Assembly (NCBI RefSeq): GCF_020164495.1
Contig: NZ_JAIQYZ010000002.1
Coordinates: 434,001 to 498,000 of the forward strand
Reading direction: 5' to 3'
Length of the DNA: 64,000 nucleotides
From: Psychroflexus lacisalsi
GTDB taxonomy: Bacteria; Bacteroidota; Bacteroidia; Flavobacteriales; Flavobacteriaceae
Shown here: piece by piece, positions 382 through 38,461 of the stretch
How the letters are laid out: each line of letters opens with the position of its first letter
Numbering within the stretch: the first letter of the stretch is position 1
The notes under the pieces: generated by a model
The model's database searches: none
What the model was told of the DNA's origin: nothing
What the model saw: the letters and a program-made list of their open reading frames with translations, nothing else
Translations under genes and position numbers: made by a program

Positions 382-750
382 ACCTAAATTTTCGACTAAA
401 AATAACAAGATTGATCTAGGGCAAGTCCATGTTTAGTATGGTTTTAACTAGATGAAAGTGTGTGGTGAGCCTGCCTGCGTTTCCTTGGCAAAGGCAGGTC
501 GTGAGTAAAATTAAAAATTTTCAACTAACAACCGTCAACCGTTTACTATAACAAAAAAGCCCAATGAATTAAATCATCAGGCTCTAGTTTATTTTATTTC
601 TTGCAACCAATCACTAGTCACCAATCACATTTTACTGACACCTGAACGTAGCTTCAATACACCTCGAAGAAAGATCGAGGCAGTCAGCCACCAATCACTA
701 GTCACAATTCACTGAAAACGGTTAACCGTTAACCGTTAACCGTTTACTAA
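382..750. repeat. Repeat-rich intergenic region
   Basis: No gene is seen here. The region holds a palindromic word built on GCCTGCCT...AGGCAGG (about 472-502; related copies near 29053, 32569 and 39869). It also has low-complexity words of the 'ccaatcactagtcac' type and one minus-strand copy of the GAGTG/GTATCGA hairpin family at 648-692. Just before ilvE there is a short tandem run of the 7-mer GTTAACC (about 720-742). Confidence 0.6.
558..583 (-). terminator. Probable terminator downstream of ilvE
   Basis: Read on the minus strand, AGCC-TG-ATGA and TCAT-TG-GGCT pair around an AT-rich loop and are followed by a run of six T. It lies about 170 bp after the ilvE stop, beyond a repeat stretch, so it is the first plausible stop for that transcript. 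Confidence 0.45.
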
Positions 751-1818
751 TTAAAACGCTTTCATCGTCCATCCGTGTGGATCTTCGACTTTATTGTATT
801 GGATATCTTGTAATGCTTTTTTGAAGAAGGTACCGTAAGGCTCGTCGACTGTTGGCAAATCGTAATACGTTCCATCGTATTCAAAACCATCAACGCTTAC
901 TACTGTAGCTGCAGTTCCTGCACCGAAAATTTCTTTAAGCTCTCCGTTTTTGGCTGCATTTACAATTTCCTTAACCGATACTTTTTCAACGACAACCTCT
1001 ACCCCATTATCTTTGGCTAGTTGAATGATACTCTTACGCGTGACACCGTCCAAAATTCTGTCATTGGTTGGTGAGGTGAGTAGCTTATCCCCAACTCTAA
1101 AGAAGATGTTCATAGTTCCAGCTTCCTCCAGGTATTCGTGAGAACTGGCATCCGTCCAAATGATTTGGTCAAGCCCTTTAGCTTTAGCTAATTTGGTTGG
1201 GTAAAACTGAGCGCCGTAATTACCAGCTGCCTTAGCAAAACCAACGCCACCATCGGCTGCCCTGCTGTATTCCTGTGCAAAAATCACTTTGATGGGCTTG
1301 TTGTAGTAGGCCTGTGCTGGACAGGTGATGATCATGAATCTATAGCGATCTGACTCTGAAGCAGACACCCCATTTTCTGTAGCGATGACAAAAGGACGTA
1401 AGTAAAGTGAATTACCTTCACCTTTCTTCACCCAATCTTTATCGAGTTCCAGTAAGGTCTTTAAAGATTCAAAAAAGTAATCCTTTGGAAACTCAGGAAT
1501 AGCCATACGTTTAGAGGACTTATTGATACGCTCAAAATTTTGTTCGGGTCTAAACAACCAAACCTGTTCGTTTTCATCTTTAAAGGCTTTCATCCCTTCA
1601 AAAACCGCCTGACCGTAATGAAACACTTTAGCGGAAGGCTCAAATTCCATCGGTCCGTAAGGAACAATTTTGGGCGTTTGCCATTTGCCATCGATGTAAT
1701 CACAATACATCATATGATCTGCATTGACTTTTCCAAATTTAAGATTACTAAAATCTACTTGATCAATTTTAGACTGTTTAGTTTTAGTAATGTCGAGTTG
1801 TATATCGGTGTTATTCAT
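751..1818 (-). CDS. ilvE: Branched-chain-amino-acid aminotransferase
   Basis: This 355-residue protein is a class IV PLP-dependent aminotransferase. It performs the last step of Leu/Ile/Val synthesis and the first step of their degradation, using 2-oxoglutarate/glutamate. The PLP lysine is probably K196 in FAKAAGNYG. The conserved EEAGTMN motif follows at about 231-237, and the substrate-side RPF motif is at about 141-143. The length fits the eukaryote-like (type II) BCAT group common in Bacteroidota. The ATG at 1818 sits 17 bases after a TACATTTG promoter word, which supports this start. The gene appears monocistronic: it is divergent from the DUF4920 lipoprotein and followed by repeats and a terminator. 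Confidence 0.95.
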   Translation of the reverse strand: MNNTDIQLDITKTKQSKIDQVDFSNLKFGKVNADHMMYCDYIDGKWQTPKIVPYGPMEFEPSAKVFHYGQAVFEGMKAFKDENEQVWLFRPEQNFERINKSSKRMAIPEFPKDYFFESLKTLLELDKDWVKKGEGNSLYLRPFVIATENGVSASESDRYRFMIITCPAQAYYNKPIKVIFAQEYSRAADGGVGFAKAAGNYGAQFYPTKLAKAKGLDQIIWTDASSHEYLEEAGTMNIFFRVGDKLLTSPTNDRILDGVTRKSIIQLAKDNGVEVVVEKVSVKEIVNAAKNGELKEIFGAGTAATVVSVDGFEYDGTYYDLPTVDEPYGTFFKKALQDIQYNKVEDPHGWTMKAF

Positions 1819-1835
1819 TATAATTGGTATTTTTG

Positions 1836-1843
1836 CAAATGTA
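1836..1843 (-). promoter_or_regulatory. Bacteroidota -7 promoter element for ilvE
   Basis: The minus strand reads TACATTTG, an exact match to TAnnTTTG, leaving a leader of roughly 12-17 nt before the ilvE ATG. No clear TTTG -33 box is seen. Confidence 0.5.
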
Positions 1844-1877
1844 CTAAATTTTAATAAGGTTAATTCAGGAAGATTCC

Positions 1878-1885
1878 TAACTTTG
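1878..1885 (+). promoter_or_regulatory. Bacteroidota -7 promoter element for the DUF4920 gene
   Basis: TAACTTTG matches TAnnTTTG, 34 bp before the ATG at 1920. It is back to back with the ilvE promoter. The -33 box is not obvious. Confidence 0.4.
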
Positions 1886-1919
1886 TTGTTATTCTTATTA
1901 TAAATTTTTAATTATTATC

Positions 1920-2444
1920 ATGAAAAAGCTGCTTTTATTACCAATATTATTGATGTTTTTGGCTTGTGGTTCAAAAGAAACTAAGCAAGAAAAAGAGACG
2001 GTGACAGATGATACATCAGAGGAAAAAGAATTGAGCATGACCACTGACTCTCAGTTTGGTGAAGCCTTTTCTTCTGCTGAAGTCAAAGCGGATAGCGAAA
2101 TGCTGGCCATGTACCAGGATTTATCTCTCGGAGACACGATTCAAGTTCAATTTCAATCTGAAGTGGAAAGTGTTTGCGCGAAAAAAGGCTGTTGGATGAA
2201 ATTAGACCTCCCCGAAGACATGAATGTGCATGTGACTTTTAAAGATTACGGTTTCTTTGTTCCAAAAGACAGTAAAGGCCATGAGATGGTTGTAGAAGGA
2301 AGAGCATTTATTGAAGAAACGGATGTGGAAACGCTAAAGCATTATGCCGAAGACGCTGGTAAAAGCAAAGAAGATATTGCAGCAATCACCTCCCCTAAAT
2401 TGAATTATAGATTTATAGCTGAAGGCGCTAAAACGGTTAAATAG
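1920..2444 (+). CDS. DUF4920 domain lipoprotein
   Basis: The 174-residue protein begins with a short hydrophobic signal and a lipobox ending at Cys16 (FLAC), so it is predicted to be lipid-anchored. Residues about 40-170 form the DUF4920 domain. This domain has a small-barrel character with the conserved SVCAKKGCWMKL cysteine pair and the GYFFVPKDSKG-like segment (here GFFVPKDSKG). The family is common in Flavobacteriia and its function is unknown. The paired cysteines suggest metal or redox chemistry, but that is inference. It has its own promoter word and no operon partner: only repeats follow. Confidence 0.85.
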   Translation: MKKLLLLPILLMFLACGSKETKQEKETVTDDTSEEKELSMTTDSQFGEAFSSAEVKADSEMLAMYQDLSLGDTIQVQFQSEVESVCAKKGCWMKLDLPEDMNVHVTFKDYGFFVPKDSKGHEMVVEGRAFIEETDVETLKHYAEDAGKSKEDIAAITSPKLNYRFIAEGAKTVK

Positions 2445-3432
2445 TTGATTTTTATTCCGTGCAAGGCGATAGCCGCGATACGGAATCTGTTTAGGTGGTG
2501 TACAAAGGTTGAATACTTGGTGTCGCTTCGAGTTCTTGCAATTGTCATCTCGAGGGAAACGCAGTGACGAGAGATCTCTGTCCACCATTTCACAGTCACC
2601 AGTTCACAGCCACCGGTTCACCCTTGTCATTCCGTGCAAGCGATAGCGCGATGCGGAATCTTTTTAAGTGTGTCTCATTATTTAAACTTTAGATATAATT
2701 AGTGTTTTCATTCATTTTTTCCATTGATGAAAAAACGAACCAAAAAAATCTAGGCTTATTTTTATGTCTTTGAAAACTACAAAAGCGGTTCCCCCACGCA
2801 AAGCAAACCGTTTCACTAGTGCTTTGCTCCTTTATCCTTTCTTCACCACTTTTTTGTTTTCTAACCTCCATAAAAAGTAGGCCGTTTTCTAACTATCAAG
2901 TGACCATTTTCATAAAAATTTGACTTGTCAATTTTGAAATTTTAAATATGAAATCTGTTCCTCCATTATACTACTACACCACTATACTAACCAACCACAC
3001 ACCACTCAAGACTCACCACTCACTACTACACCATTATACTACTACACCACTATACTAACCCACCACTCACCATTCACTATTACACCATTATACTACTACA
3101 CCACTATACTAATACACCATTATACTAACCACTAATAAGCTCCCTTAGGTTTAATCGAGTTCTCGATACAATGGCTTTGGTCTATCGCCACAAATCCATC
3201 ACTCGAACTGACGTTTAAATGTGGCTTCGATACAATTTTTCAAAAGAAAAATCACTCAGCCACCGGTTCACCAGTTTACCAGTCCACAGTTATCAGTTGC
3301 CAGTCAACCAGTCTACCACAGACTGACAACAGACAACAGACAACGGAGAACACACAACTCACCTCTCACAACTCACTACTACACAACTACACCACTATAC
3401 TAATCCACTACTCACCACTCACCACTCACCTC
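2445..3432. repeat. Repeat-rich intergenic region (no convincing gene)
   Basis: It contains two copies of a CCGTGC...GCGATAGCGCGATGCGG hairpin word (about 2457-2489 and 2632-2663) and a TCTCGAGGGAAACGCAGTGACGAGAGA hairpin at about 2536-2577. There is also a segment at 2716-2765 whose reverse complement resembles 29562-29611. Low-complexity runs of 'actactacaccactatac' type occupy about 2960-3130 and 3360-3440. Two minus-strand copies of the GAGTG/GTATCGA hairpin family lie at 3158-3209 and 3221-3263. Short open frames here follow the repeats and look non-genic. Confidence 0.6.
3158..3263 (-). repeat. Two adjacent GAGTG/GTATCGA hairpin elements
   Basis: Minus-strand copy 1 (3158-3209) has outer stem AGTTC/GAACT. 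Copy 2 (3221-3263) has outer stem GTGGCT/AGCCAC and inner stem ATTTTTC/GAAAAAT. Both keep GAGTG on the 5' side and GTATCGA on the 3' side. Confidence 0.65.
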
Positions 3433-4482
3433 TCACAACTCACGACTCACTACTTCAAACCACTGATGCTTCACCACTTCCCAATCGAAGTGCTCGACTT
3501 TTTTACGGCCTTGAAGGGAGAGCTGCTGAGCTAAACTTGGATCATCCAACAGACGGATAATCGCTTGAGTGAATTCGTCTACATGTCCAGGGGATACCAA
3601 CAAAGCTTCTTTTTCATGATCTAGGAGATAAGGCAGTCCACCCACATTGGTGGAGACCACAGGTAAGCCTAAGGCCATGGCTTCGATCACGCTTACGGGA
3701 GTGTTGTCGACATTGGTAGTATTAATAAACACATCAAAGTCTTGGGCGTACTGAAGCCAGTCTTCCTTTTTCATTCCTCCAGTAAAAGTCACTGGTAATT
3801 TATGTTCTTTGGCAAAGGCTTTACACTCCTCTATGGAATCATCTTTAAAAGGGCCTACCATACTGAGCTTCACCTTTGGATAAGTGAACCGCAACTCTTT
3901 TAAAACCTGAAGCGCTAAGAGAGGATTATATAAGTGGGCAAAAGACCGAACCCATAAGAGGTGGGGTTGGAGCTCTTGGCGTTTTTTAAAGGTATACAGA
4001 TCGAGCTTGATAGTATTGGGGATATAGGTAAGGTTGGTGTAGCCTGCATTTTTAAATTCGTGTAACAAATAAGCAGAGGGCGCTACATTGACTTTCGCGT
4101 TCCCAAATAGCTTTTGGCAAAGCTGAGGATCACTTTTAAGCCGTTTGGGGAGATCACCGCCATGTAAAATAGGGATATAATCTAACTTTAAAAAAAAAGC
4201 CAATCGACTACTGATATAAGCAAACCAAAAAGCGGAAGTGCTATACGTGTCTATGAGTAAAACATCAGTTTTTGAAGCTTGAATTATCACTTGACCAAGC
4301 ATCACCAGCAACCTCAAGACCGGATTCGTTTGACTTGATGCTGAAACAACTTTATAGCCATCACTCTCAAACTGGCTAGACAGATACTCTATGGTTGAGG
4401 TGTTTTTCCCTTTACGGGAGAGCTTGTTGCCGAGATAAAGCAGTCGTTTTGGGTTTGGTTTTGGGTCGTTTTTGTTTCGCAT
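3433..4482 (-). CDS. Glycosyltransferase family 4 (GT-B)
   Basis: About 349 residues from the ATG at 4482. A start at 4509 is also open but adds nine residues (MALPSYLFI) atypical of the family and lengthens the overlap with the upstream gene. The C-terminal half has the GT4 donor-binding region: SVIEAMALGLPVVST, then a GG-containing turn (NVGGLPYL). Retaining GT-B enzymes of this kind transfer a sugar from a nucleotide donor during surface-glycan assembly, at the cytoplasmic face of the inner membrane. It is the last gene of the polysaccharide cluster. It overlaps the ligase-like gene by 71 bp, implying translational coupling. The sugar specificity cannot be read from sequence. Confidence 0.85.
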   Translation of the reverse strand: MRNKNDPKPNPKRLLYLGNKLSRKGKNTSTIEYLSSQFESDGYKVVSASSQTNPVLRLLVMLGQVIIQASKTDVLLIDTYSTSAFWFAYISSRLAFFLKLDYIPILHGGDLPKRLKSDPQLCQKLFGNAKVNVAPSAYLLHEFKNAGYTNLTYIPNTIKLDLYTFKKRQELQPHLLWVRSFAHLYNPLLALQVLKELRFTYPKVKLSMVGPFKDDSIEECKAFAKEHKLPVTFTGGMKKEDWLQYAQDFDVFINTTNVDNTPVSVIEAMALGLPVVSTNVGGLPYLLDHEKEALLVSPGHVDEFTQAIIRLLDDPSLAQQLSLQGRKKVEHFDWEVVKHQWFEVVSREL

Positions 4483-5803
4483 AATGAACAGATAAGAGGG
4501 CAAAGCCATACATAAATCCAGGAAGTGCTACTCGCATCGCAGAATGGTTGATGGTTAAAAACCAAAAGGCAACAAAGGGCAACATCAATAAATTTCTATT
4601 TTTCGATAATAAAAAGCCAAGCGGAATCAACAAAAGAATAAGAAGGGCGAAGATCCCTAAAACACCATGCTCCGCCATCATCCTAGAGACTTCATTATGA
4701 CTTGCGGCAAGTTCTCCATCTAGCTCAAATCTAAAAAACTTTCCCATCCCAACCCCTGCACCTAAAAAGGGATCTTCAAAAAAAGCCATTAGCTCTTCAC
4801 TAATGATTTCTGCTCGGCCAGTGGTGATGTCTTTATCTTCTCCTCTTGCATTTTGACCAGCATAGCGGTTATAAATTAATCCTCCTGTCACCGCCATCGC
4901 AGTTCCCCAAAGCAGGAACCCTCCTACCCCAAGCCCTATTAGCTTTACTGTGGCTTTTGCTTTTTTGGCTAAAGGCGCCCAATTGATATAAAGCACCGTA
5001 AAAACAGCCATCATCACGATGGCGGTTATAAAACCACCGCGGGAAAAAGTGAGTAAACACCGATAAGTCAACAGACCTAAAAGACCTATATTAATAAAGT
5101 TTAACAAATTATTTTTATAGGGGATCAGAAACCGGATGAAGGCTAGAAACATTCCTAAGCCTAGAATCGTGGCCACTTGGTTTCCACTATATCCTCCTGA
5201 AGCTGCTTGGTTGGACTCGGTGGTAAACACGATATTCTCTAAAGCAGGCGCATATAAAATAATATACACCACCATGCTTAACACAGGAAGCATCATGACA
5301 TCAACCACCTTTAACAAGGTTTTAAATTTGATTTCCCGCTGGTAACAAAAAAGGGCTGTCGCGAATAAGGACAAGGGGCCGGAAAGATTAAATAAGACCG
5401 TTTTTCGAAAGCTCTCATCAAAATAATCAAAATTGAGGTATCCAACCACGACACCAGGTAATAGCAAGAACAAAAAAGCTAGCACAGGCCAAGCTTTCAA
5501 TTTAAAGCCCTCGAAAAACATCCCTAAAAGCATGAAGAAGATGACTAAATATTTGCCCAATTCCCAAAACGGCATCGCTTTAGACATTCTTAAAAAAACT
5601 TCAGCGGCTGCGATATAGGCTGCAGCACCTAAAGCATGATAGGTTTTATCGGTCCGTTTTATGATTTGAAAAACAAAATACACCACGATTGATAGTAAAT
5701 AAACCTGAGCTAAAACTCGGAATTTACTTACCAAAATACCTATCCCCACGTGAAGGAGTAAGCGCTGAAGATATAAAGTGGTGTCTTTATCTAAGCCGAA
5801 CAT
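4412..5803 (-). CDS. O-antigen ligase/polymerase family membrane protein
   Basis: The 463 residues contain about 10-11 hydrophobic segments and one large periplasmic loop. The loop carries the Wzy_C-type sequence GAGVGMGKFF and then ASHNEVSRMMAEHG, the loop His-containing motif shared by WaaL ligases and Wzy polymerases. The cluster exports glycan through an ABC transporter rather than Wzx. A WaaL-like ligase role, joining the finished glycan to a lipid acceptor, is therefore more likely than Wzy polymerisation. That choice is inference from context. It overlaps both neighbours (16 bp upstream, 71 bp downstream). The last 20 residues are basic and lie within the downstream overlap. Confidence 0.8.
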   Translation of the reverse strand: MFGLDKDTTLYLQRLLLHVGIGILVSKFRVLAQVYLLSIVVYFVFQIIKRTDKTYHALGAAAYIAAAEVFLRMSKAMPFWELGKYLVIFFMLLGMFFEGFKLKAWPVLAFLFLLLPGVVVGYLNFDYFDESFRKTVLFNLSGPLSLFATALFCYQREIKFKTLLKVVDVMMLPVLSMVVYIILYAPALENIVFTTESNQAASGGYSGNQVATILGLGMFLAFIRFLIPYKNNLLNFINIGLLGLLTYRCLLTFSRGGFITAIVMMAVFTVLYINWAPLAKKAKATVKLIGLGVGGFLLWGTAMAVTGGLIYNRYAGQNARGEDKDITTGRAEIISEELMAFFEDPFLGAGVGMGKFFRFELDGELAASHNEVSRMMAEHGVLGIFALLILLLIPLGFLLSKNRNLLMLPFVAFWFLTINHSAMRVALPGFMYGFALLSVHYAKQKRPKTKPKTTALSRQQALP

Positions 5804-6929: not shown

Positions 6930-7489
6930 TTTTTTATTTATCAGGCGAGACTTTGTCACTATTCGTGTATTCGTTTATTCGAGTATTCGTGTATTCGTGT
7001 ATTCGTGTATTCGTGTATTCGTGTATTCGGCGAGACTTCGTCTCTAATGGTGTATTCGTTATTTCGTGTACTTGTCATATCGAGTGGTTTTTACTTTGCT
7101 TTTTTGAAGCTAAATAAAAATTGTATCGAGATACCGATTATTCTATTATACGATTATACGACTATTCGTCCTTTCGTGTATTCGGCGAGACTTCGTCTCT
7201 AATGGTATATTCGAGTATTCGTGTATTCGCCACTTTGTTTTTACTATTTTCCGATTATTCTATTATACGACTATTCGTCCTTTCGTGTATTCGTGTATTC
7301 GGCGAGACTTCGTCTCTAATGGTGTATTCGTTATTTCGTGTACCTGTCATATCGAGTGGTTTTTATTTTGCTTTTTCATAGCTAAATAAAAATTGTATCG
7401 AGATATAGTCAGTACTTTTTCCGACTATACAATTATACTACTATACGACTACACTTTTATACGACTAATAATTGTTTCGTGATTTAAAT
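6930..7489. repeat. Low-complexity array of the 8-mer GTATTCGT and related words, with two hairpin elements
   Basis: The 8-bp unit GTATTCGT recurs in tandem. It is interspersed with the hairpin word GCGAGACTTCGTCTC (about 7030, 7188, 7304) and with ATACGACTATTC-type words. Two copies of the GAGTG/GTATCGA hairpin lie at 7078-7133 and 7350-7405 (outer stem TATC/GATA). The 8-mer has no stop in any frame, which creates long spurious open frames. No gene is supported. Confidence 0.75.
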
Positions 7490-7846
7490 CTAATATTTGG
7501 TTTTGACATATTTTTTATAGCCTGAAAGTAATTTTCTAGTTTTCTCAAGCATTTCAAATACTTCTTCAATTGACTTGTCATCTAAATAATTCAGATTTTT
7601 TGCGATTATAATTTGGGTATCTAGTTCAGCGGCGGAACCAATAGAATAACCTACAAATTGATGTAGCTCTTTCCAACTATTTCTACCACTCCCTTCAGCA
7701 ATATTAGAGGGAATTGAAACAGCAGATCTTCTAATCTGGCTCGTCAGTCCAAAGTTCTCAGATTTGGGAAAGGCTTCTGTAAGCTTATACACAAGAGTGA
7801 CTAACTCCATAGATACCTTCCAAACATCTAATTCTTTATGGTTCAT
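7490..7846 (-). CDS. Four-helix-bundle protein (S23/IVS-type, TIGR02436)
   Basis: The 118-residue all-helical protein starts MNHKELDVWKVSMEL. It contains the family hallmarks LTSQIRRSAVSIPSNIAEG at about 48-66 and a helical tail ending KKLSGY-like (KLLSGYKKY). The family includes proteins encoded in 23S rRNA intervening sequences and is distantly related to Avd of diversity-generating retroelements. No rRNA or reverse transcriptase is nearby. The molecular function is unknown. The gene is wedged between repeat arrays: the 8-mer array begins about 5 bp before its ATG and resumes shortly after its stop. It is therefore an island of coding sequence within low-complexity DNA, inside a glycosyltransferase cluster. 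Confidence 0.85.
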   Translation of the reverse strand: MNHKELDVWKVSMELVTLVYKLTEAFPKSENFGLTSQIRRSAVSIPSNIAEGSGRNSWKELHQFVGYSIGSAAELDTQIIIAKNLNYLDDKSIEEVFEMLEKTRKLLSGYKKYVKTKY

Positions 7847-8610
7847 GTTTTATTCGTGTATTCGTGTATTCGTGTATTCGTGTATTCGTGTATTCGTGTA
7901 TTCGTGTATTCGGCGAGACTTCGTCTCTAATGGTGTATTCGTTATTTCGTGTATTCGTGTATTCGTGTATTCGGCGAGACTTCGTCTCTAATGGTGTATT
8001 CGTGTATTCGTGTATTCGTGTATTCGGCGAGACTTCGTCTCTAATGGTATATTCGTTATTTCGTGTACTTGTCATATCGAGTGGTTTTTATTTTGCTTTT
8101 TTATAGCTAAATAAAAATTGTATCGAGATATATTCAGTACTTTTTCCTACTATACTACTATTCGTCCTTTCGTGTATTCGTGTATTCGGCGAGACTTCGT
8201 CTCTAATGGTGTATTCGTTATTTCGTGTACCTGTCATATCGAGTGGTTTTTACTTTGCTTATTCGAAGCTAATTAAAAATTGTATCGAGATACCGATTAT
8301 ACTACTATACGACTATACTACTATTCGTCCTTTCGTGTATTCGTGTATTCGTCCTTTCGTGTATTGGTATATTCGAGTATTAGTGTATTCGCCATTTTGT
8401 TTTTACTATTTTCCGATTATACGACTATACTACTATTCTATTATACGACTATTCGTTGTTTCGTGTATTGGTAAATTCGAGTATTAGTGTATTCGCCATT
8501 TTGTTTTTACTATTTTCCGATTATACAATTATACGACTATACTACTATTCGATTAGACGACTATACTATTATACGACTATTCGTTTTATCCATTCAAAAT
8601 TAAAATTTAT
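7847..8610. repeat. Low-complexity array of GTATTCGT with two hairpin elements
   Basis: About seven perfect tandem GTATTCGT units lie at 7853-7911. They are followed by four GCGAGACTTCGTCTC hairpin words (about 7913, 7976, 8029, 8188) and by ATTATACGACTATAC words up to 8585. Hairpin elements of the GAGTG/GTATCGA family occur at 8075-8130 and 8237-8292, with a TATC/GATA outer stem. There is no supported gene. Confidence 0.75.
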
Positions 8611-11761: not shown

Positions 11762-11765
11762 AAAA

Positions 11766-12284: not shown

Positions 12285-12361
12285 TCTCTTCTATATTTTA
12301 AAAATTTATAATCTATTAAAAGTTTAAGACTAAACTTTTTACTAGTCCCCTTCAGATCAAA

Positions 12362-14821: not shown

Positions 14822-14822
14822 A

Positions 14823-16001: not shown

Positions 16002-16080
16002 GTAAAATAAAAAAATGAAGTTAAGAATTTAGACAATAATACTCTCTTCCTTGACCGAAAATTGAAAGTTTTCAAGGGTC

Positions 16081-17253: not shown

Positions 17254-17255
17254 GA

Positions 17256-20461: not shown

Positions 20462-20470
20462 GATAAATTT

Positions 20471-22332: not shown

Positions 22333-22693
22333 ATTTAATGAATTCGTATTGCAATGTTACGAATTTTCGGGATGAGTTATTAGTTTATCCGAGTTTTCGT
22401 GGTTGGTTTTTCGGTAATTAGTTGATAGTGGTTAGTTTGTCGTTAACAGTTTTAAATTTGTATATACCATACACTAAAACAAGTCTAAATGGTGGAACTG
22501 AAATAAACCTGCCTACCCAATTCATCCAAGCACGTTCAGATTGACAAGCCTTTTAAAAGGAGATCTGAGTATCATAGAACAGGCTGTTAACATTCAATAA
22601 CCTAAGATTATATTTGAACTTAATAAGAAAATTGACTCCAACTAATTATAAAATAAATAAGAGTGTTATCCAAAAAATCAAACCTTATACTGC
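22333..22693 (-). pseudogene. Intergenic gap with a probable decayed glycosyltransferase tail (about 22440-22600)
   Basis: Read on the minus strand, one frame gives LFYDTQISF, a stop, then KACQSERAWMNWVGRF and PPFRLVLVYGIYKF. The amphipathic, tryptophan- and arginine-rich pattern resembles the C-terminal membrane-binding tail of GT2 enzymes. The in-frame stop and the lack of an upstream catalytic domain make it a remnant if it is real. The rest of the gap is AT-rich with no recognisable signal. Confidence 0.3.
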
Positions 22694-24297: not shown

Positions 24298-24298
24298 A

Positions 24299-25567
24299 TT
24301 ATTTTATTGTCCAAGATTGATCAGATAAAAAGACACCAAGATTTTCTTTCGAGGGTATTTTACCTGTTTTGAATACGTCGCCTGATTCTACTACAACTTC
24401 ACTAAAGGCATCCTTTTGATACAATACTTTCTTGGATTTTAAATCTAAAATTTGAATTCCAAGTTCATATAATCCGGGAGAGATGTTTAGTTTAGAAATA
24501 GAACAAACAAAACTTTGATCAAATTTTTCTAAAATTTTATTAGAATTTAGATGAAATGTATTTAGTGTGGTAATTAATTTTTCGTCTTTATCAAAAACCT
24601 GGTACCTAACATTAATTTTAGTTGATTTTGGATTTTTAACTCTTAGATTTAATTCAAAGGAGCATTTTTCACCCAACAACAAGTTTGAATTATTACCAAT
24701 AAAATCAAGGACTTCAAAGTTTGATATTTCGCCCTCATCAAATTTAATTGGAAAAGTCTTAGCAGTATCATTATCTTTTTTACTCAAATAATAACTAACA
24801 CAATCATCGGTTCCCCCTTCAAAAGCAATTTTCCCATTTTCCAAGACAATCCCTCGGGTACATAAACTTTTAACCGCCGCCATATTATGGCTGACAAATA
24901 ATACCGTTCGCCCATCGTTTCCAGAAATATCTTTCATTTTACCAATAGCTTTCTTTTGGAATTCGGCATCGCCTACGGCGAGGACTTCGTCCACTACTAA
25001 AATATCGGGCTCAAGGTGAGCCGCTACCGCAAAAGCCAATCTCACCCGCATTCCTGAGGAATACCGCTTCACGGGGGTGTCCACGTACATAGCACAACCC
25101 GAAAACTCGATGATCTCTTCTTCCTTTTCTCTGATTTCCGCTTTGGTCATCCCTAAAATAGCCCCATTCAAGTAGATATTTTCACGACCAGTCAATTCGG
25201 GGTGAAACCCAGTGCCCACCTCCAGTAGAGACGCGATTCTTCCTTTGGTCTTGATAATTCCCGTAGTGGGGGAAGTCACTCGCGATAAGATTTTGAGCAA
25301 GGTAGATTTTCCCGCACCATTCTTACCAATAATACCTAACACATCGCCATCGTAGACATCAAAATTAATATCGCGTAAAGCCCACACATAATCGGTCTCT
25401 GCTTTTTTGCTGCGGTCGTTTTCAGCCCCTATTTTTAGGTACGGATCTTCCTTGCCCCTTAAACTCGCCCACCACCGGTTGAGGTCGTGACTCAGCGTCC
25501 CCGTTCCTACCACACCTAGGCGGTATTGTTTGGAGATGTTTTTGGCGGTTAGAATTATGTTTTTCAT
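24299..25567 (-). CDS. Polysaccharide ABC exporter ATPase (Wzt/TagH type) with C-terminal carbohydrate-binding domain
   Basis: The protein has 422 residues. The nucleotide-binding domain has Walker A GKNGAGKST (81-89), signature YSSGM (169-173), Walker B ILVVDE (189-194) and the switch His227. Residues about 270-422 form a beta-rich Wzt-C-like domain, which in O-antigen exporters recognises the non-reducing end of the chain and so controls which polymer leaves. It pairs with the ABC-2 permease at 27805-28680. Unusually the two genes are 2.2 kb apart, separated by arrays, an IS and a four-helix-bundle gene. Confidence 0.92.
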   Translation of the reverse strand: MKNIILTAKNISKQYRLGVVGTGTLSHDLNRWWASLRGKEDPYLKIGAENDRSKKAETDYVWALRDINFDVYDGDVLGIIGKNGAGKSTLLKILSRVTSPTTGIIKTKGRIASLLEVGTGFHPELTGRENIYLNGAILGMTKAEIREKEEEIIEFSGCAMYVDTPVKRYSSGMRVRLAFAVAAHLEPDILVVDEVLAVGDAEFQKKAIGKMKDISGNDGRTVLFVSHNMAAVKSLCTRGIVLENGKIAFEGGTDDCVSYYLSKKDNDTAKTFPIKFDEGEISNFEVLDFIGNNSNLLLGEKCSFELNLRVKNPKSTKINVRYQVFDKDEKLITTLNTFHLNSNKILEKFDQSFVCSISKLNISPGLYELGIQILDLKSKKVLYQKDAFSEVVVESGDVFKTGKIPSKENLGVFLSDQSWTIK

Positions 25568-25621
25568 TTCAGTTGCCTGTTATCAGTTGTCGGTTGTCGG
25601 TTGTCGGTTATCGGTTGTCAG
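25568..25621. repeat. Tandem CGGTTGT/CGGTTATC words upstream of the exporter ATPase
   Basis: A run of 7-8-mer words (TCGGTTGTC, TCGGTTATC, TCAGTTATT) fills the space between the ATPase start and the small helical gene. The same words recur at 25991-26205, 27547-27790 and 28810-29300. Confidence 0.6.
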
Positions 25622-25990
25622 TTATTTGTTGGTTTTCCAATTAGATTCAACGTAGTTGGTAAATTTATAAATTTTTGCACCTAATTCATCATATTTCACG
25701 ATCATTGATTCCACCTCTAGATCAGGGTAAAGTTGACTTATCATTTCCAATTGTGATTTACACTCCAACAAAGAAGCGTAAGCGTAGATCAAGAATTTTA
25801 TAAAATCATTCTTATAAGCCTTACGCCCATAACCTTCTATAATATTGTCTTTAATGCTTTTTGATGAACGTCTTACCTGGCTCCCTTGTTCATATAACTC
25901 ATACTTAGGTAGCTTCAAAGTCAGTTTATGAACTTCAACAGCATACTCGAATGCTAAATTATATATGTCTAAATCTTTATGAGATTTCAT
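25622..25990 (-). CDS. Four-helix-bundle protein (S23/IVS-type), second paralogue
   Basis: The 122-residue helical protein starts MKSHKDLDIYNLAFEYAVE and carries QVRRSSKSIKDNIIEGYG in place of the usual RRSxxSIxxNIAEG. It belongs to the same broad TIGR02436-like family as the gene at 7490-7846 but is clearly divergent from it. Both flanks are repeat arrays that begin within 10 bp of the ATG and directly after the stop. No ribosome site or promoter stands out apart from the array sequence itself. The function is unknown. Confidence 0.82.
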   Translation of the reverse strand: MKSHKDLDIYNLAFEYAVEVHKLTLKLPKYELYEQGSQVRRSSKSIKDNIIEGYGRKAYKNDFIKFLIYAYASLLECKSQLEMISQLYPDLEVESMIVKYDELGAKIYKFTNYVESNWKTNK

Positions 25991-26205
25991 TATTCGGTTA
26001 TCGGTTATCAGTTGTTGGTTATCAGTTGTCGGTTGTTGGTTATCGGTTATCAGTTTGGTGGCTGAGTGTTCCGACTTTTTGTGTCGGAATGTATCGAAGC
26101 CACTGTTATCGGTTGTCAGTCTTCGGTTATCTGTTTTCAGTTGTCGGTTATCTGTTATCGGTTATCTGTTATCGGTTTTCGGTTCTCAGTTGTCAGTTTG
26201 GTGGC
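25991..26205. repeat. CGGTTATC-type array with a hairpin element (26057-26103)
   Basis: Tandem degenerate words TCGGTTATC and TCAGTTGTC lie on both sides of a GAGTG/GTATCGA element with outer stem GTGGCT/AGCCAC and inner stem TTCCGAC/GTCGGAA. A second element starts at about 26201 and is cut by the IS. Confidence 0.7.
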
Positions 26206-26232
26206 TGTAGAGTACTAAATAGAGTTGACCTT

Positions 26233-27066
26233 TTAGAGTTGTTTATTTGATTCAAAGTTATTAATTATTTCCTTATTAAGTTTTTGTTCATATTCCACTG
26301 GTGTATAGTGTTTTATAGCACTATGAGGTTTTTCATGATTATACATGTATACTGCTCTATCTAAACTCATGTTTAAGCTTTGCTCTGTTACTGGATTATA
26401 TCCTCTTAGATAACTATTCTTTATTGTACCGTTAATTCTCTCCGCATGAGGGTTCTCATAGACATTCACACACATACTATTTCTTAAACATCCTCTTGTC
26501 AAGCTTAAAAAGCTTTTGCTGTAATACTGTCCTCCACCATCAGAGTGTATGATAGGTTTTTCTTTTTGATCACTTGTAATCCTTTTAAGAGCCATCTTTA
26601 GAGCTGGTATGGTTGTATCTATTGTTTTGAGTGTCCTGCTAGCGCTATAACCAATTATCCTTCTGGAATATTGATCCATTATGAAGGTTAGGTAATAGAA
26701 CTTACTATTCATTTCATAGTAGGTTATATCACTCACCCAGACCTGGTTTACTCCTGTCAACTCCCGATCCTTAATCAGGTTAGGGAAACGTATGACCCCA
26801 CTACTATCAGTGGTTCTTCTGAAGGATTTTTGCATAGGTATTTTAAATCCATATTTACCATAAAATTCAAAGAACTTATCCCTGCCCATTGTCTCAGGTC
26901 TTACTTTCCGATAAAGTGCCTTACATCCCATATTCGGATGATCTTCTCTTACCTGCCGCAAAATCACTTTTAGATGTTCTTTCTCTTCCTCTCTTTCTAT
27001 TTCTCTGTTAAGCCGTTGATGTACATTTTGCTTGGTGGTTCCCAACCAACGATAAATCTGATTCAT
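26233..27066 (-). CDS. IS3-family transposase OrfB (DDE integrase)
   Basis: The protein has 277 residues. An N-terminal HTH_21-like part (about 25-75) is followed by an rve integrase core with the acidic triad D113 (WVSDITYY), D176 (HSDGGGQYYS) and E209 (ENPHAERING). Its ATG overlaps the orfA stop by 4 bp. The same frame is open upstream to the A9 tract in orfA, so a transframe OrfAB transposase starting in orfA is probably the active enzyme. All catalytic residues are present and the copy appears intact. Confidence 0.92.
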   Translation of the reverse strand: MNQIYRWLGTTKQNVHQRLNREIEREEEKEHLKVILRQVREDHPNMGCKALYRKVRPETMGRDKFFEFYGKYGFKIPMQKSFRRTTDSSGVIRFPNLIKDRELTGVNQVWVSDITYYEMNSKFYYLTFIMDQYSRRIIGYSASRTLKTIDTTIPALKMALKRITSDQKEKPIIHSDGGGQYYSKSFLSLTRGCLRNSMCVNVYENPHAERINGTIKNSYLRGYNPVTEQSLNMSLDRAVYMYNHEKPHSAIKHYTPVEYEQKLNKEIINNFESNKQL

Positions 27067-27488
27067 TTTCCATTGGTGTTCTTTCCTGTTGAGCCAGAAC
27101 CAGGCAAGGGTTTGGAACTGAGTTTTTTTTTGATGTCGATATCATACATCTCTTCTGCAATATCTATCATCTTATTTTTAAACTCAATCTCGATCTGCTT
27201 TTGACCAATCAAATGCTCGAGATCACGAATTTTCGCCTTTAAATCCTGTATTTTTCGGGTATCACTCATAAGTTCTACAACTTGTTTAACGCCTCGCTTG
27301 CGGTTGAGAGAATACTTATCCAACCATTTATAAATTGCCGTTTTTGACACTTCATACTCTTTGCTGACCTCCATAACTGTAGAAAGGTTCTTCTCAATTT
27401 CCTGAACCTTCTTTCGCTTAAAGCTTTCACTAAAATAACGATTTATTCGTTGAGAACTTTCTTTAGAATAATCTTCTGGTTTTACCAT
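27063..27488 (-). CDS. IS3-family transposase OrfA (helix-turn-helix/coiled-coil)
   Basis: 141 residues from the ATG at 27488. An in-frame TTG at 27524 lies close to the terminal repeat and is less likely. An N-terminal HTH (SFKRKKVQEIEKN...EYEVSKTAIYKWL) binds the IS ends, and a leucine-zipper-like coiled coil (about 65-100) serves dimerisation. A run of nine A on the coding strand (27123-27131) gives A AAA AAA. Slipping there by -1 leads without a stop into orfB, the classical IS3 mechanism for making OrfAB. Confidence 0.88.
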   Translation of the reverse strand: MVKPEDYSKESSQRINRYFSESFKRKKVQEIEKNLSTVMEVSKEYEVSKTAIYKWLDKYSLNRKRGVKQVVELMSDTRKIQDLKAKIRDLEHLIGQKQIEIEFKNKMIDIAEEMYDIDIKKKLSSKPLPGSGSTGKNTNGK

Positions 27489-27546
27489 AATACTGAGTTG
27501 TTTAAAACTCCGTAAAACGGTCAACTTATTTCAGTACCCGACAGGC

Positions 27547-27804
27547 TGAGTGTTTCGACATTTCTGTCGGAATGTATCGAAGCCACTGTTATCTGTTGTC
27601 TGTTTTCAGTCATCTGTTTTCAGTTGTCGGTTATCTGTTATCGGTTTTCGGTTCTCAGTTGTCAGTTTTCAGTTGTCAGTTTGGTGGCTGAGTGTTTCGA
27701 CATTTCTGTCGGAATGTATCGAAGCCACTGTCATGTGTAATCTGTTATCCGTTGTCGGTTTTCGGTTAACTGTCAACTGCTAACCGTTAACCGCGCCTCT
27801 GGCG
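27547..27804. repeat. Right half of the interrupted hairpin, CGGTTATC array and a second hairpin element
   Basis: 27544-27586 is the right part of the IS-split element. Array words TCTGTTTTC and CAGTTGTCGG follow, and an intact hairpin element lies at 27683-27728 with inner stem TTCGACA/TGTCGGA-like arms. No gene is present. Confidence 0.65.
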
Positions 27805-28680
27805 CTACACCGTATCTATAAAACTCTTCTCCGTCCTGTTAAAAATAGCTAAGCCCATAAAAAACACCACTAAGGAAAAACCCAAAGCATAGAAAAAGCC
27901 CCACCACGTAAAAAGTCCTGTGTCTAAGGTCATATACCGGAAGCCTTCTATAATCTGGGCGATAGGGTTGTACTTAAACACCCAAAAGTATTCTGGTTTC
28001 TTTTCCAAGATCTCGGACATAGGAAAAGGAACAGCCGAGATATACATCAGCAATTGTACACCGAAGGTGATCAACACCGTGAAATCTCTGTATTTGGTGG
28101 TCAAAGAGGATAAGATCATGCCCAAACCCAAACCCGTCATTCCCATAATAAAGACATAAGCAGGGAACAGCACCAAATTGGCATTGGGGCTGATGTCTTT
28201 TCCAGAAGCCACGAAGTATATGTAAAACCCCGCAAATATAGTAAGTTGTATTCCAAACTTAAGTAAATTGGAGATAGTCACCGACATCGGCATAATGACC
28301 CTAGGAAAATACACCTTGCCGAAGATACCCGCGTTTTTTGTAAAAGTGCCCGAGGTACCCATAAGACATTCTCTGAAGTACGTCCAAGCGGTAATCCCCG
28401 CTAGGTTGAACAGAAAACTTGGTACAGTACCCGTTTGAATATTAGCCACATTATTGAACACCAATGTAAAAATAACCGAGGTAAATAGCGGCTGAATTAA
28501 AAACCAAAGCGGGCCGAGTATAGTTTGCTTATACACGGTTACTATATCCCGTTTCACAAATAAAACCAGCAAATCTCGGTACCTCCAAATTTCCTTAAAA
28601 TTAAAATCTAGGAGTTTCTTCTCTGCTTTAATCTCGTATAACCAATCAGAATCTTGAGAGGAGGTCTTTGTGTTATCCAT
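27805..28680 (-). CDS. Polysaccharide ABC exporter permease (Wzm/TagG type, ABC-2)
   Basis: The 291-residue protein has six predicted membrane helices and the ABC2_membrane signature region (YKQTILGPLWFLIQPL near 50-65). The N-terminal cytoplasmic segment is typical of Wzm-like subunits. It moves the completed glycan across the inner membrane using the ATPase encoded at 24299-25567. It is the first gene of the cluster in transcription order. A long (about 100-nt) untranslated leader follows a TAGATTTG promoter word. Confidence 0.92.
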   Translation of the reverse strand: MDNTKTSSQDSDWLYEIKAEKKLLDFNFKEIWRYRDLLVLFVKRDIVTVYKQTILGPLWFLIQPLFTSVIFTLVFNNVANIQTGTVPSFLFNLAGITAWTYFRECLMGTSGTFTKNAGIFGKVYFPRVIMPMSVTISNLLKFGIQLTIFAGFYIYFVASGKDISPNANLVLFPAYVFIMGMTGLGLGMILSSLTTKYRDFTVLITFGVQLLMYISAVPFPMSEILEKKPEYFWVFKYNPIAQIIEGFRYMTLDTGLFTWWGFFYALGFSLVVFFMGLAIFNRTEKSFIDTV

Positions 28681-28784
28681 AGAATGTGGTTAGCTGTAAT
28701 GTCTGTTTTCAAATCTTAAAAACCGAAAGTTATAAGTTAATTGATCTTAAATCGAAAGAGATAAAACTTTCTTTCATTAAGCTG

Positions 28785-28792
28785 CAAATCTA
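28785..28792 (-). promoter_or_regulatory. Candidate promoter -7 element for the polysaccharide cluster
   Basis: The minus strand reads TAGATTTG (TAnnTTTG) about 105 bp before the permease ATG. No convincing -33 TTTG is seen. If it is used, the 5' leader would be long enough to hold a regulatory structure. Confidence 0.3.
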
Positions 28793-29738
28793 CATGTTTT
28801 TAGAGAAAGTCGGTTGTCTGTTTTTGGTTTTCGGTTTTCAGTTCTCAGTATCCAGTTTTCGGTTGTCGGTTGTCGGTTTTCAGTTGTCGGTTGTCAGTTG
28901 TCGTATAGTGGTGTAGTTGTATAGTGGTGCATTGATCTTTAGTTAGATTATGAATTACTTCTTTATTCGATATTCGGTTTTCGGTATTTTTTTGTGAACT
29001 GGTGGCTGAATGATCCCGACATTTTGGTTGGGATTGTATCGAAGCCACAATGAATCCTGAGCCTGCCTGCGTTTCCTCGGCAAAGGCAGATCGGGTTTCG
29101 GTTTTCAGTTGTCGGTTCTCAGTTGTCGGTTTTCAGTTTTCAGTTCTCAGTATCCAGTTTTCGGTTATCGGTTTTCGGTTTTTAGTGACTTGTGAATAGA
29201 AACTGGTGGCTGAGTGTCCGCCTAGGAGGATGTATCGAAGCTACCCTGATTGAAGTTGTCGGTTTTCAGTTTTCTGTTGTCAGTGAATAGTGAATTGTGA
29301 TTAGTGAATGGTGTAATAGTATAGTGGAGAAATGGTCGCTAAGCCCTCAAGAATGAATGAGTCGGGCAGGCTTATTGACCAACTAAAACATTAGATTTAG
29401 GTACACTTTTTAGAAACGGGCCTATCTAAAAAAACATTGAAAAACAAGGAAGCAGGGTTAGCTAGAAGATGAAAATCTGTTTAAAGAAGGCGATAGCCTG
29501 ATGAGTTATTTTTCATCTGTGGTGGGGGATTCCATAGTATTTTCTTATGATTTTTTTAGTAAGCCTAGCGTTTTTTGGTTCTTTTTTGGGCAATGCAAAA
29601 AAGAATAAGAGCTTTAATCTTATCTAGATCTTAAAATTCAAACTTCTAACATTAAACTACTTCTCGATACTTTTTCCTCTCCTTCGCAGTCAAGAAAAAA
29701 ACTCGAAGTGACAATAGTTTTCGGTTACCAGTTTTCAG

Positions 29739-30290
29739 TGAATGGTGATTAGTGACTTGTGAATAGAAACCGGTGGGTAATGTCAGGTCGAGTGGATTTT
29801 GCTTTTGAAAAAAGTAAAATTTGTATCGAGACCTTGTCCATACTCAGAACTTCAAACTACCTCTCGATACAATTTCGTTCCGTTTCACTTCTCGAAATCA
29901 CTCGAGGTGACAATGGATGGCTTTTCTTGTAGTTGCATAAAAAGGTAATAATATATTGGTGGCTGAGTGCCTCGATTTTTTATCGAGGTGTATCGAAGCT
30001 ACCACGATTTGTCGGTTTTTAGTGAATGGTGATTAGTGACTTGTGAATAGAAACCGGTGGGTAATGTCAGGTCGAGTGGATTTTACTTTCGAAGAAAGTA
30101 AAATTTGTATCGAGACCTTGTTTTTACTCAGAACTTCAAATTACCTCTCGATACAATTTCGTTCCGTTTCACTTCTCGAAATCACTCGAGGTGACAATGG
30201 ATGGCTTTTCTTGTAGTCGCATAAAAAGGTAATGATATATTGGTGGCTGAGTGCCTCGATTTTTTATCGAGGTATATCGAAGCTACCAAG
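29739..30290. repeat. Tandem duplication of a three-hairpin unit (period 283 bp)
   Basis: Hairpins of unit 1 are at 29785-29834, 29859-29908 and 29958-30003. Those of unit 2 are at 30069-30118, 30143-30192 and 30242-30287. The inner stem of the first hairpin differs between copies (TTTTGC... against TTTTACTTTC/GAAAGTAAAA), while the outer stems and loop words are conserved. Confidence 0.8.
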
Positions 30291-30423
30291 GATTATCAGT
30301 TGATGGTTTACTGTTTTCTGTTGTCAGTTGTCTGTTGTCAGTTGATAATTGAGTAAAAAACAAGTAACAGTAAACCGAAGACTGTAAACGGTGAAAAACA
30401 ATTATGAATTACCACTTTTTGCT

Positions 30424-30741
30424 TTATTCTGTTCTTTTTATTTTTGGAGGATTTTGGCGAGTATCAAAAACATCGTTGATCTCAATTCTACTCTCAGCTT
30501 TATTCATCCAATAGATTATTTTATAGCTTTTGTAAACTAGATATCTAAATTTCTGTTTTCGATTTTTGAGTAATTCCTCAATTTGTCCAATTTCGGGGTT
30601 TTGCTCAAGATCTAGTGCTTTATTATAAATTTCATCCGTCAGATTCTTAGCCATTCGGTAGCTTACTTTTTTATGGTAATATTCGAATATTTTTTTAAGT
30701 TCACCTTCAGCGAATTCAGTCCAATAAACCTCTAACCCCAT
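30424..30741 (-). CDS. ParE/RelE-superfamily toxin
   Basis: The protein has 105 residues. EVYWTEFAEGELKKIFEYY at the N-terminus and the central RYLVYKSYKIIYW strand match the type II ParE/RelE fold, and NDVFDTRQNPPK at the end is the usual closing segment. Such toxins act on gyrase (ParE) or on ribosome-bound mRNA (RelE); which one cannot be decided by eye. The start overlaps the antitoxin stop by 10 bp, the standard antitoxin-first operon. It lies within repeat DNA next to a polysaccharide cluster, as is usual for mobile toxin-antitoxin pairs. Confidence 0.85.
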   Translation of the reverse strand: MGLEVYWTEFAEGELKKIFEYYHKKVSYRMAKNLTDEIYNKALDLEQNPEIGQIEELLKNRKQKFRYLVYKSYKIIYWMNKAESRIEINDVFDTRQNPPKIKRTE

Positions 30742-30974
30742 TTTTCCATTTTGGCTTTTAAATCACTTGCTTTGATCAATCTTCCATTTTTGGAATCCTC
30801 CATGGACCTGTCAATTCGTTTATTAAACTCTTCAATAGTCATAGGTTTAAGCTCCTCTTTTCCAGAATTTTTAATTTCTTTCCGTAAAACTTTCTCGAGA
30901 CGATTTATAATGTCTTCATTTTGAACTTTTAGAAACTCTTGAACAAACTCTATTTTTCTATTTTGAATATCCAT
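30732..30974 (-). CDS. Type II antitoxin (cognate of the ParE/RelE toxin)
   Basis: 80 residues from the ATG at 30974 (MDIQNRKIEFVQEFLK). An upstream TTG start at 30992 would fall inside the TATATTTG promoter word and is rejected. The helical N-terminus probably dimerises or binds the operator. The C-terminal part (MTIEEFNKRID...KASDLKAKMEKW) is the toxin-wrapping tail seen in many Bacteroidota antitoxins paired with ParE. It probably represses its own promoter 16 bp upstream. Confidence 0.8.
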   Translation of the reverse strand: MDIQNRKIEFVQEFLKVQNEDIINRLEKVLRKEIKNSGKEELKPMTIEEFNKRIDRSMEDSKNGRLIKASDLKAKMEKWG

Positions 30975-30989
30975 TTCAAACGATTTTAT

Positions 30990-30997
30990 CAAATATA
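30990..30997 (-). promoter_or_regulatory. Promoter -7 element of the toxin-antitoxin operon
   Basis: TATATTTG on the minus strand is an exact TAnnTTTG match, 16 bp before the antitoxin ATG. Its position settles the start codon. Confidence 0.5.
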
Positions 30998-31761
30998 CGA
31001 ATTAATCGAATCTATATTTTCTTTGTTTTGCAATTTTTCATCAGCGTGTTGCCAGCTTTCAGTGATCAGTGACTGGTGACTGGTAGCAGAGCCCGCCTGA
31101 ATGACTTAGTCGGGCAGGTGGTCCCAACTTTTCGTTGGGATTTTATCGAAGCTACCACGAGTTGTTGGTTTTTAGTTAATGGTGAATGAAATAATAGTAT
31201 AATGGTATAGTGGTAATAAGCCAGTAGTGTCATGCTGAACTCGTTTTAGCATCTTCTCCGGTCTGAATCTAGACCCTGAAATATTCCGAGGCTTCGGGGC
31301 AGGGTTACAAAGCTGTCAGGTCGAGTGGATTTTACTTTTGCAAAAAGAAAAATTTGTATCGAGACCTTGTTCAAGCTAATTGCATCAAACTACCTCTCGA
31401 TACAATTTCGTTCCGTTTCACTTCACAAAATCACTCGAGGTGACAATAGTTGACTTTTCGTGTAGTCTTATAATGAGGTAATTGGTAACTCGTGGCTAAT
31501 ATTAGGTCGAGTGCTGGTTTTGTGTCTTTAGACCAAAATCAGAGTATCGAGACCCTGTTCAAGCTAATTGCATCAAACTACTTCTCGATACTTTTTTCTC
31601 TTCTTCGCAGTCAAGAAAAAAACTCGAGGTGACATTAACTGTAAATTTGGTGGCTGAGTGTCCGCCTAGGCGGATGTAACGAAGCTACCTTAATTATCGA
31701 TTCACGAAAAACAGTGAACTGTAAACTCATCACTAGTCACTAATCACTAATCACTAAAAAC
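30998..31761. repeat. Repeat-dense intergenic region with about six hairpin elements
   Basis: Elements lie at 31082-31156 (variant), 31318-31367, 31392-31441 (minus), 31504-31554, 31580-31630 (minus) and 31649-31689. The last has a perfect inner palindrome TCCGCCTAGGCGGA. One plus-strand inner stem pairs CTGGTTTTG with CAAAATCAG. Low-complexity 'agtgactggtgactgg' words fill the rest. No gene is seen. Confidence 0.7.
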
Positions 31762-38372: not shown

Positions 38373-38400
38373 ATGAAATATATGCATAGCAGGATCTAGA

Positions 38401-38457: not shown

Positions 38458-38461
38458 GTCA

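Follow-up and report, generated by a model that had tools for sequence, protein, structure and literature searches.

Introduction

The closest described relatives of the repeats that we report here are the CGTC-tagged repetitive extragenic palindromes (REPs), a superfamily defined in Di Nocera et al., 2013 (PMC3733652). In the available text of that paper, these REPs are reported in Bacteroidetes and Chlorobi, with G. forsetii named; they have stems of 8–9 bp, loops of 4–5 nt and a CCA-like tail, and clusters of them are rare. Atypical structures are described as flanking the subclass 2.6 (Bertels group 5) TnpA-REP genes of Bacteroidetes in the available text of PMC6006769. Here, we analyzed a stretch of 64,000 nucleotides from Psychroflexus lacisalsi (contig NZ_JAIQYZ010000002.1, positions 434,001 to 498,000; hereafter the window, which lies on contig C12 of genome G000) that holds 25 copies of a structured intergenic element, in which the words GAGTG and GTATCGA stand between an outer stem and an inner hairpin of variable sequence. 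Our best explanation, to which we give a probability of about 0.6, is that they represent mini-mobile elements of the REP/REPIN type in Flavobacteriales, which function as a hairpin of single-strand DNA and are mobilised in trans. Handles beginning with G, C and L denote genomes, contigs and loci.

The elements fall into two subfamilies, I with a YGTC tag and II with a YGG tag. Like the CGTC-tagged REPs as described in the available text (PMC3733652), they are mostly intergenic, and subfamily I, but not II, carries CGTC or TGTC at its end, beyond the stem (YGTC in 86 of 97 Flavobacteriia elements among the matches listed). Outward dimers predominate in both, there often of unlike halves and here in 14/15 neighbour pairs of genome G055 and 96/240 over all loci, and neither has a linked transposase, which here refers to Y1 only (79 loci at E≤0.01). 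In contrast, our elements have a 4-bp outer stem, a bulge, an internal loop and a long variable inner hairpin; the A-T described at the first and second stem positions of CGTC-tagged REPs is not the rule in motif-chosen elements, 203 subfamily I elements show no CCA consensus downstream of the 3' stem, arrays occur in several genomes whereas clusters are rare there, and subfamily II has YGG in place of a CGTC-type tag. Because subfamily I differs in stem and loop size, A-T start and tail, and subfamily II lacks the tag, we consider the family a variant of the CGTC-REP kind and do not file it as a member. An initial annotation of this DNA knew of no described family with such a signature; this was too strong, since subfamily I agrees with the CGTC-tagged REPs in its tag, in the outward dimers and in having no linked transposase. 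The GAGTG/GTATCGA signature itself we found nowhere described in the literature searched, whose coverage left outside many subscription papers and all figures.

With REPINs and RAYT-linked GTAG REPs (PMC3116915; PMC3733652, available text), the elements share two inverted hairpins, a short end tag and dispersal between genes. Unlike the RAYT/REPtron GTAG REPs, they have YGTC and YGG tags, not GTAG (GTGG), and at 79 selected loci no Y1 gene is flanked by copies at E≤0.01. Compared by description only (PMC6006769), they resemble the subclass 2.6 structures in phylum, in having no GT[AG]G tag and in their unusual structure, but the 20 weaker Y1 loci analyzed here, mostly RAYT-size open reading frames (ORFs), are without a copy at E≤0.01; the two sets of structures may overlap.

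A structured repeat family in the window and its genome

The word TGTATCGA occurs 20 times in the window as compared to 1.28 times expected, and none of 100 shuffles reaches 20. Scanning the window for GAGTG and GTATCGA (at most one mismatch each) with an outer stem of at least 4 bp and an inner stem of at least 3 bp, we found 23 copies, and 2 in the reversed sequence. A scan free of any stem requirement (at most one mismatch in total) gave 38 motif pairs, 22 of them with an outer stem of at least 4 bp, as compared to 8 and 0 in the reversed control. A covariance model of the element (R1) gave 25 matches within 646–31690, 18 of which had belonged to its training alignment. These cover every place at which the initial annotation had put its approximately 25 structured elements; the copy at 648 has two substitutions in the loop words, and the copy at 31109 is degenerate (23.5 bits). 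The copies are listed here with their R1 scores.

646–693, minus strand: subfamily II (YGG tag), degenerate loop words, 46.9 bits
3155–3212, minus strand: subfamily I (YGTC tag), 46.8 bits
3219–3265, minus strand: subfamily II, identical 47-nt sequence in G021 (L112 11634–11680), 52.3 bits
7074–7137, plus strand: subfamily I, 54 bits
7346–7409, plus strand: subfamily I, 54.7 bits
8071–8134, plus strand: subfamily I, 52 bits
8233–8296, plus strand: subfamily I, 53.7 bits
26056–26105, plus strand: subfamily II, 57.4 bits
26199–27588, plus strand: subfamily II split by an IS3-like insertion sequence, 3' part 27544–27588, R1 match 27540–27588, 38 bits
27682–27730, plus strand: subfamily II, 53.5 bits
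29000–29050, plus strand: subfamily II, 58.2 bits
29204–29246, plus strand: subfamily II, 41.6 bits
29656–29712, minus strand: subfamily I, 36.2 bits
29782–29837, plus strand: subfamily I, left half of tags-outward dimer 1, 52.2 bits
29856–29911, minus strand: subfamily I, right half of dimer 1, 18-nt spacer, 45.4 bits
29957–30004, plus strand: subfamily II, 55.9 bits
30066–30121, plus strand: subfamily I, left half of dimer 2, 53.7 bits
30140–30195, minus strand: subfamily I, right half of dimer 2, 18-nt spacer, 43.6 bits
30241–30288, plus strand: subfamily II, 48.4 bits
31109–31157, plus strand: degenerate subfamily II, absent from the whole-genome R1 list, 23.5 bits, E 1.9e-4
31315–31370, plus strand: subfamily I, left half of dimer 3, 55.8 bits
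31389–31444, minus strand: subfamily I, right half of dimer 3, 18-nt spacer, 42.5 bits
31501–31558, plus strand: subfamily I, left half of dimer 4, 43.3 bits
31577–31633, minus strand: subfamily I, right half of dimer 4, 18-nt spacer, 32 bits
31648–31690, plus strand: subfamily II, 42.1 bits

In the whole of G000, the exact pattern occurs 31 times and the backward pattern 3 times. R1 gives at least 36 matches, a lower bound because the genome-wide search missed 5 of the 25 window matches, four of these above 40 bits; 20 of the 36 lie in a 28-kb stretch of C12 and the remaining 16 at four places on C1. The intergenic DNA of the window is rich in low-complexity word repeats, from which palindromes might arise by chance; however, the word excess and the pattern scans lie far above the shuffled and reversed controls, swap tests on sets picked by loop words alone (below) already refute chance pairing, and a motif-only genome scan yields elements with stems and tag from Flavobacteriia but not from 16 loci outside Bacteroidota/Chlorobiota. 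We regard chance palindromes as a negligible explanation. The initial annotation had named a lack of covariation or of further copies as what would point to chance palindromes and had proposed searching the genome and its relatives with a covariance model; this search gave the 36 matches in G000 and copies in 34 of 60 genomes.

Tags, core and fold of the arm

To describe the arm, we built profiles from 299 unique copies chosen with at least three of five pairs per stem, 203 of subfamily I and 75 of subfamily II; 21 with other stem ends were left out. Subfamily I (YGTC tag, NNTC stem) reads YGTC A NNTC GAGTG-inner-N GTATCGA GANN, and subfamily II (YGG tag, TNNYT stem) reads YGG TNNYT GAGTG-inner-N GTATCGA ARNNA. 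Both have the core GAGTG/NGTATCGA flanking a variable inner hairpin, and on their left end the profiles begin abruptly at the tag. In the consensus structure that RNAalifold gives for 25 sequences, the 3' side carries a GA bulge, followed by GA/TC pairs and a small internal loop ahead of the inner hairpin; of the single-strand DNA folds of six window copies, four show this same arrangement, with a bulge of 2 nt, and the other two differ. Thus, the fixed loop words and paired stems of the initial annotation hold, but its single plan with a simple asymmetric loop gives way to two tag/stem subfamilies and to a GA bulge plus internal loop.

When 122 unique elements chosen with their stems were folded plainly as RNA, both helices took the expected register in 33 and the inner helix did so in 104; in our view, the low register agreement probably reflects slipped outer registers permitted by the TCGA words. 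In a set of 139 motif-chosen elements, which includes loci without a title, the base after GTC is mostly A and the facing base is T in 43, C in 36 and A in 31, and this fifth outer-stem position proves unpaired.

Stems change in sequence and stay paired

In the training alignment, 97.1% of cells pair, as compared to 63% when shuffled and 34–50% when slid. Three of five covariation measures lie beyond all shuffles and two do not: none of 500 shuffles reaches the covariation score or the count of cells with both sides changed, whereas pairs changed on both sides (10) are matched in 88/500 and further pair types (22) in 147/500. The window rows of this alignment had been chosen with their stems, and we repeated the tests on sets picked by loop words alone, exchanging 3' halves among elements in 2000 swaps, a procedure that does not correct for relatedness. 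In the window set (n=21), outer pairing is 0.933 as compared to 0.580 swapped and inner pairing 0.952 as compared to 0.595; in G055 (n=36), the values are 0.867 against 0.724 and 0.994 against 0.579; and in Flavobacteriia (86 elements, 57 loci), the outer NN positions give 0.965 against 0.723 and the inner stem 0.949 against 0.643. None of the 2000 swaps reached the observed pairing in any of these sets, which bears out the initial observation that the stems change yet still pair. Among 160 inner-stem types, a set that includes stretches located through R1, outer pairing is 0.902 against 0.638 and inner pairing 0.895 against 0.522, again above every one of the 2000 swaps.

The two strands of the element are not equivalent. 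Among elements chosen by motif only, the GAGTG strand gives the better fold of the two with RNA parameters in 21/21 window, 34/36 G055 and 79/86 titled Flavobacteriia elements, and with DNA parameters in 21/21, 33/36 and 77/86. G-T exceeds A-C in inner stems by 44:14 in one count and by 14:4 in the Flavobacteriia set, where outer stems give 7:1; a set containing many related copies gives 41:1 for inner stems. This asymmetry of folding and the G-T excess speak more for a single strand of RNA or DNA than for a symmetric site in the duplex.

Use of a palindrome or cruciform by a dimeric protein or topoisomerase has been proposed for bacterial interspersed mosaic elements (BIMEs). A double-strand DNA site of this kind would be in keeping with the palindromes, dimers and arrays seen here and with the preference for convergent gaps described below; however, a free stem around a fixed core is the reverse of the usual double-strand operator, and with the strand asymmetry of folding this makes such a site very unlikely. 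It is also conceivable that template switching in replication keeps the stems perfect; structure would then be under no selection, and selection or inheritance would concern the core words alone. Near-perfect inner palindromes and many unlike stems in one genome (23 distinct 5' inner 6-mers in 36 G055 copies) agree with this. Switching should, however, remove the imperfection of the core, across which outer and inner stems both stay paired, and should also remove the G-T pairs that are commoner than A-C in inner stems, and we consider it very unlikely.

Tags-outward dimers and their dispersal

A common unit is a dimer with its tags outward, of which the window holds four, all with 18-nt spacers. 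Neighbour pairs in G055 have tags outward in 14 of 15 cases. Over all loci (n=240), 96 pairs are outward (HH), 69 inward (TT) and 75 same-way (HT), so that outward is the commonest arrangement without being the majority; arrays inflate the inward and same-way counts.

In G077, a member of another family of the order, the long half has 36 occurrences (at most 3 mismatches) at 8 chromosomal places, largely in arrays of approximately 165 bp. With the lone G077 dimer (L170) as query, most of the matches listed in its genus have their start at the tag, and the opposite tag is where many of them stop. In 18 of 20 loci from 11 genomes of this genus, picked for matching the dimer, the first alignment begins between 4 bases before and 1 base after the first tag base; of the exceptions, L222 starts 6 and 14 bases before the tag and L219 only from base 83. 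Alignments often end at 124–127, several cover one half (end 49) and some reach 130–210. The left flanks differ as judged by eye, although within arrays the flank is the neighbouring unit. Similarity that starts at the tag while flanks differ indicates dispersal. Pairing kept through changes on both sides, together with sharp-ended units in different flanks, suggests that structure matters and that a mobility mechanism using the structure is the best reading. The initial proposal of selection on structure or of a structure-needing transposition is upheld to this extent; the stems may be kept by selection or by mutational upkeep of the palindromes.

Separately, L170 1099–1348 in G077 is a possible longer unit of approximately 250 bp with the dimer at one end, and matches in G116 and G130 extend beyond the dimer. 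As some dimer matches reach approximately 250 bp, a longer unit may exist.

A wide and patchy distribution

Under strict filters, R1 copies occur in 34 of 60 genomes, comprising 31/37 of the same family and 3/23 of other families of the order (G064 with 5 matches, G072 with 49 and G077 with 33). The plain pattern is present in 80/100 genomes, where 1–5 matches equal the level of the backward control. A motif-only scan of genomes from 84,980 species gave at least 118 stretches, 80 of them titled, which we grouped by title into 57 from Flavobacteriia, 7 from other Bacteroidota/Chlorobiota and 16 others; titled genera among the matches listed include Chryseobacterium, Flavobacterium, Maribacter and Winogradskyella. 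Among the matches listed, the 97 elements of Flavobacteriia have both free outer pairs in 92, the inner stem in 94 and YGTC in 86; the 12 elements of the seven other Bacteroidota/Chlorobiota stretches have these in 11, 8 and 9, and the 16 elements from outside these phyla in 7, 4 and 0. The family is thus wide and patchy, and it gains a sharp, searchable signature. Viruses were rejected as carriers: among at least 120 motif matches in viral contigs, one has a GTC tag and is itself without stems.

Copies lie between genes, with large clusters in surface-polysaccharide loci and others elsewhere

Of 611 copies, with those of overlapping loci entering the count repeatedly, a single one falls within an ORF. 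When intergenic gaps of 60 bp or more are considered, copies are present in 25/38 convergent, 49/154 co-directional and 3/26 divergent gaps; as the selection of loci started from copies, information lies only in how the gap types compare. Copies therefore avoid genes and divergent gaps.

The preference for convergent and co-directional gaps is also what would be expected of an RNA element whose hairpin acts in transcripts (in 3'-end protection, processing or bidirectional termination) and whose stems are kept by selection on RNA, and both the better RNA fold of the GAGTG strand and the inner G-T excess fit such a role. However, copies in co-directional gaps are 72 sense and 56 antisense, two T-rich positions past the subfamily I 3' end (111 and 128 of 203) are followed by no T run, and the window gives no Rfam match on the element at gathering score, only two tRNAs and one Bacteroid-trp leader. 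An intrinsic terminator, a GC-rich hairpin followed by a T run, was rejected: 25900–31760 holds 4 terminators as compared to 4.2 expected, one of them in a copy. Tag-bounded similarity in different flanks is likewise unexplained by an RNA role alone, and we consider this role unlikely.

Positions 3.4–29 kb of the window are a surface-polysaccharide locus with glycosyltransferases, Wzy_C, MBOAT, ABC and ABC2 proteins, bounded by an Aminotran_4 gene and Trp_syntA. Copy-rich stretches of relatives, fetched for their copy richness, hold 29 copies in 40 kb (G021), 33 in 40 kb (G025), 16 in 40 kb (G008) and 9 in 20 kb (G001); Pfam was run on 3, 3, 3 and 1 of their proteins, one stretch each, and all of these are of polysaccharide type but one AAA/DUF4143 protein. 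Arrays also lie elsewhere or in unexamined surroundings, namely ten copies in one gap of C1 of G000 (L124), nine in G005 (L117) and sixteen within 4 kb of C23 of G021 (L180), which is denser than the large polysaccharide-locus clusters. As large clusters lie in the surface-polysaccharide locus of the window's genus, the repeats may help this locus to recombine. A bolder proposal is a new single-strand DNA transposition/recombination system of Flavobacteriales, in which an enzyme would read tag and GA bulge irrespective of the stem sequence, and copies gathering in these loci would promote gene exchange and so surface variation. We find this quite unlikely.

Two four-helix proteins of the 23S-rRNA intervening-sequence type (PF05635) lie inside the polysaccharide locus of the window, at 7490–7846 and 25622–25990, among the copies, and the genome has 11 matches. 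PF05635 and element counts correlate weakly (rho 0.34). As a partner of the elements, these proteins were rejected in view of G034 and G035, which have elements and no PF05635 match.

A model of mobilisation and the search for a partner

In integron attC sites, a folded single strand is recognised via bulged bases while the stem sequence varies. The elements described here may resemble them in the bulge of the folded strand and in the variable stem. In the model that we favor, REP/REPIN-type mobility, each arm consists of an end tag (YGTC in I, YGG in II), an outer stem of 4–6 bp, a fixed core and a variable inner hairpin, and the core (5' GAGTG; 3' NGTATCGA) allows for two GA/TC pairs along with a GA bulge and a small internal loop. 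A putative trans-acting enzyme, most likely of HUH type, would read the tag and bulge and not the stem sequence, which would leave the stems free to change as long as they still pair. A common unit of dispersal would be a pair of arms whose tags face outward; copies would land between genes, be tolerated best where genes converge, and then grow into local arrays through tandem duplication.

Several results weigh against this model. In outer stems, G-T to A-C is 26:22, without excess, in the set that gives 44:14 for inner stems, and 14:40 in the 139 elements, where the unpaired fifth position gives 36 of the A-C. No R1 copy was found at E≤0.01 in 79 Y1_Tnp loci (30, of which L001 and L032–L060 are the members, 20 weaker ones and 29 in G077's genus), which are best or selected Y1 genes, some cut by contig ends; weak matches have E of 0.06, 0.14 and 0.23. 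No Y1 match at E≤0.001 was found in the copy-bearing genomes G055, G050, G002, G011, G029 (only 80% complete), G034, G035, G116 and G121. The many unlike inner stems in G055 suggest old copies and not recent hops, and a replication-strand bias in G077 (6/7 loci) is not significant. At orthologous gaps, where the initial annotation had advised comparing presence and absence, approximately 250 bp from the tag on are missing in G116 relative to G077; however, ATTTTAA flanks this segment on either side in G077 and G116 lacks other segments as well, so a deletion in G116 is as possible as an insertion. The trpA-trpB gap holds two copies in G008 and none in G000, and the two gaps are too diverged to place an insertion point.

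Element and Y1 gene counts do correlate (rho 0.39, n=37; rho 0.55, n=60; kinship and genome size uncorrected). A Y1 (IS200-like) transposase was nevertheless rejected as a linked partner, since the sole Y1 match of G000 (L001) is flanked by other repeats. Its motifs are DHTH, WQ and YVLNQPQHH, and by our reading of the available text of PMC6006769 the protein probably resembles subclass 1.2. At L001 1200–2480 it is surrounded by many units of a different repeat (GGGGCTTTAGCCCTG..), which may be its own REP-like partner. In L091 (G025 C1:3301000–3314000), four weak Y1-like ORFs of approximately 130–185 aa neighbour each other in 13 kb. The element-bearing genomes without any Y1 match narrow the enzyme candidates, and this natural case of a fixed core with free stems makes the question of what moves CGTC-type REPs testable.

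Other features of the window

The IS3-like element in the split subfamily II copy spans approximately 26206–27543 (boundaries by eye), with ORFs bearing rve and HTH_Tnp_1 domains, and GGC on both of its sides is a likely target duplication. Intergenic degenerate word repeats (runs of TTCGTGTATTCG or GTTGTCGGTTATC) that vary between gaps lie at 2890–3430, 6960–8600 and 25560–29300, and word arrays resembling them are also found in G008 trpA-trpB. A simple CGTC-like repeat without the GTAT core (TGTCATCTCGAG..CGAGAGAT) coexists with the family at 2543–2580. The Bacteroidete trp leader RNA (RF01692) lies at 38362–38476, just upstream of a 460-aa ORF at 36934–38316.

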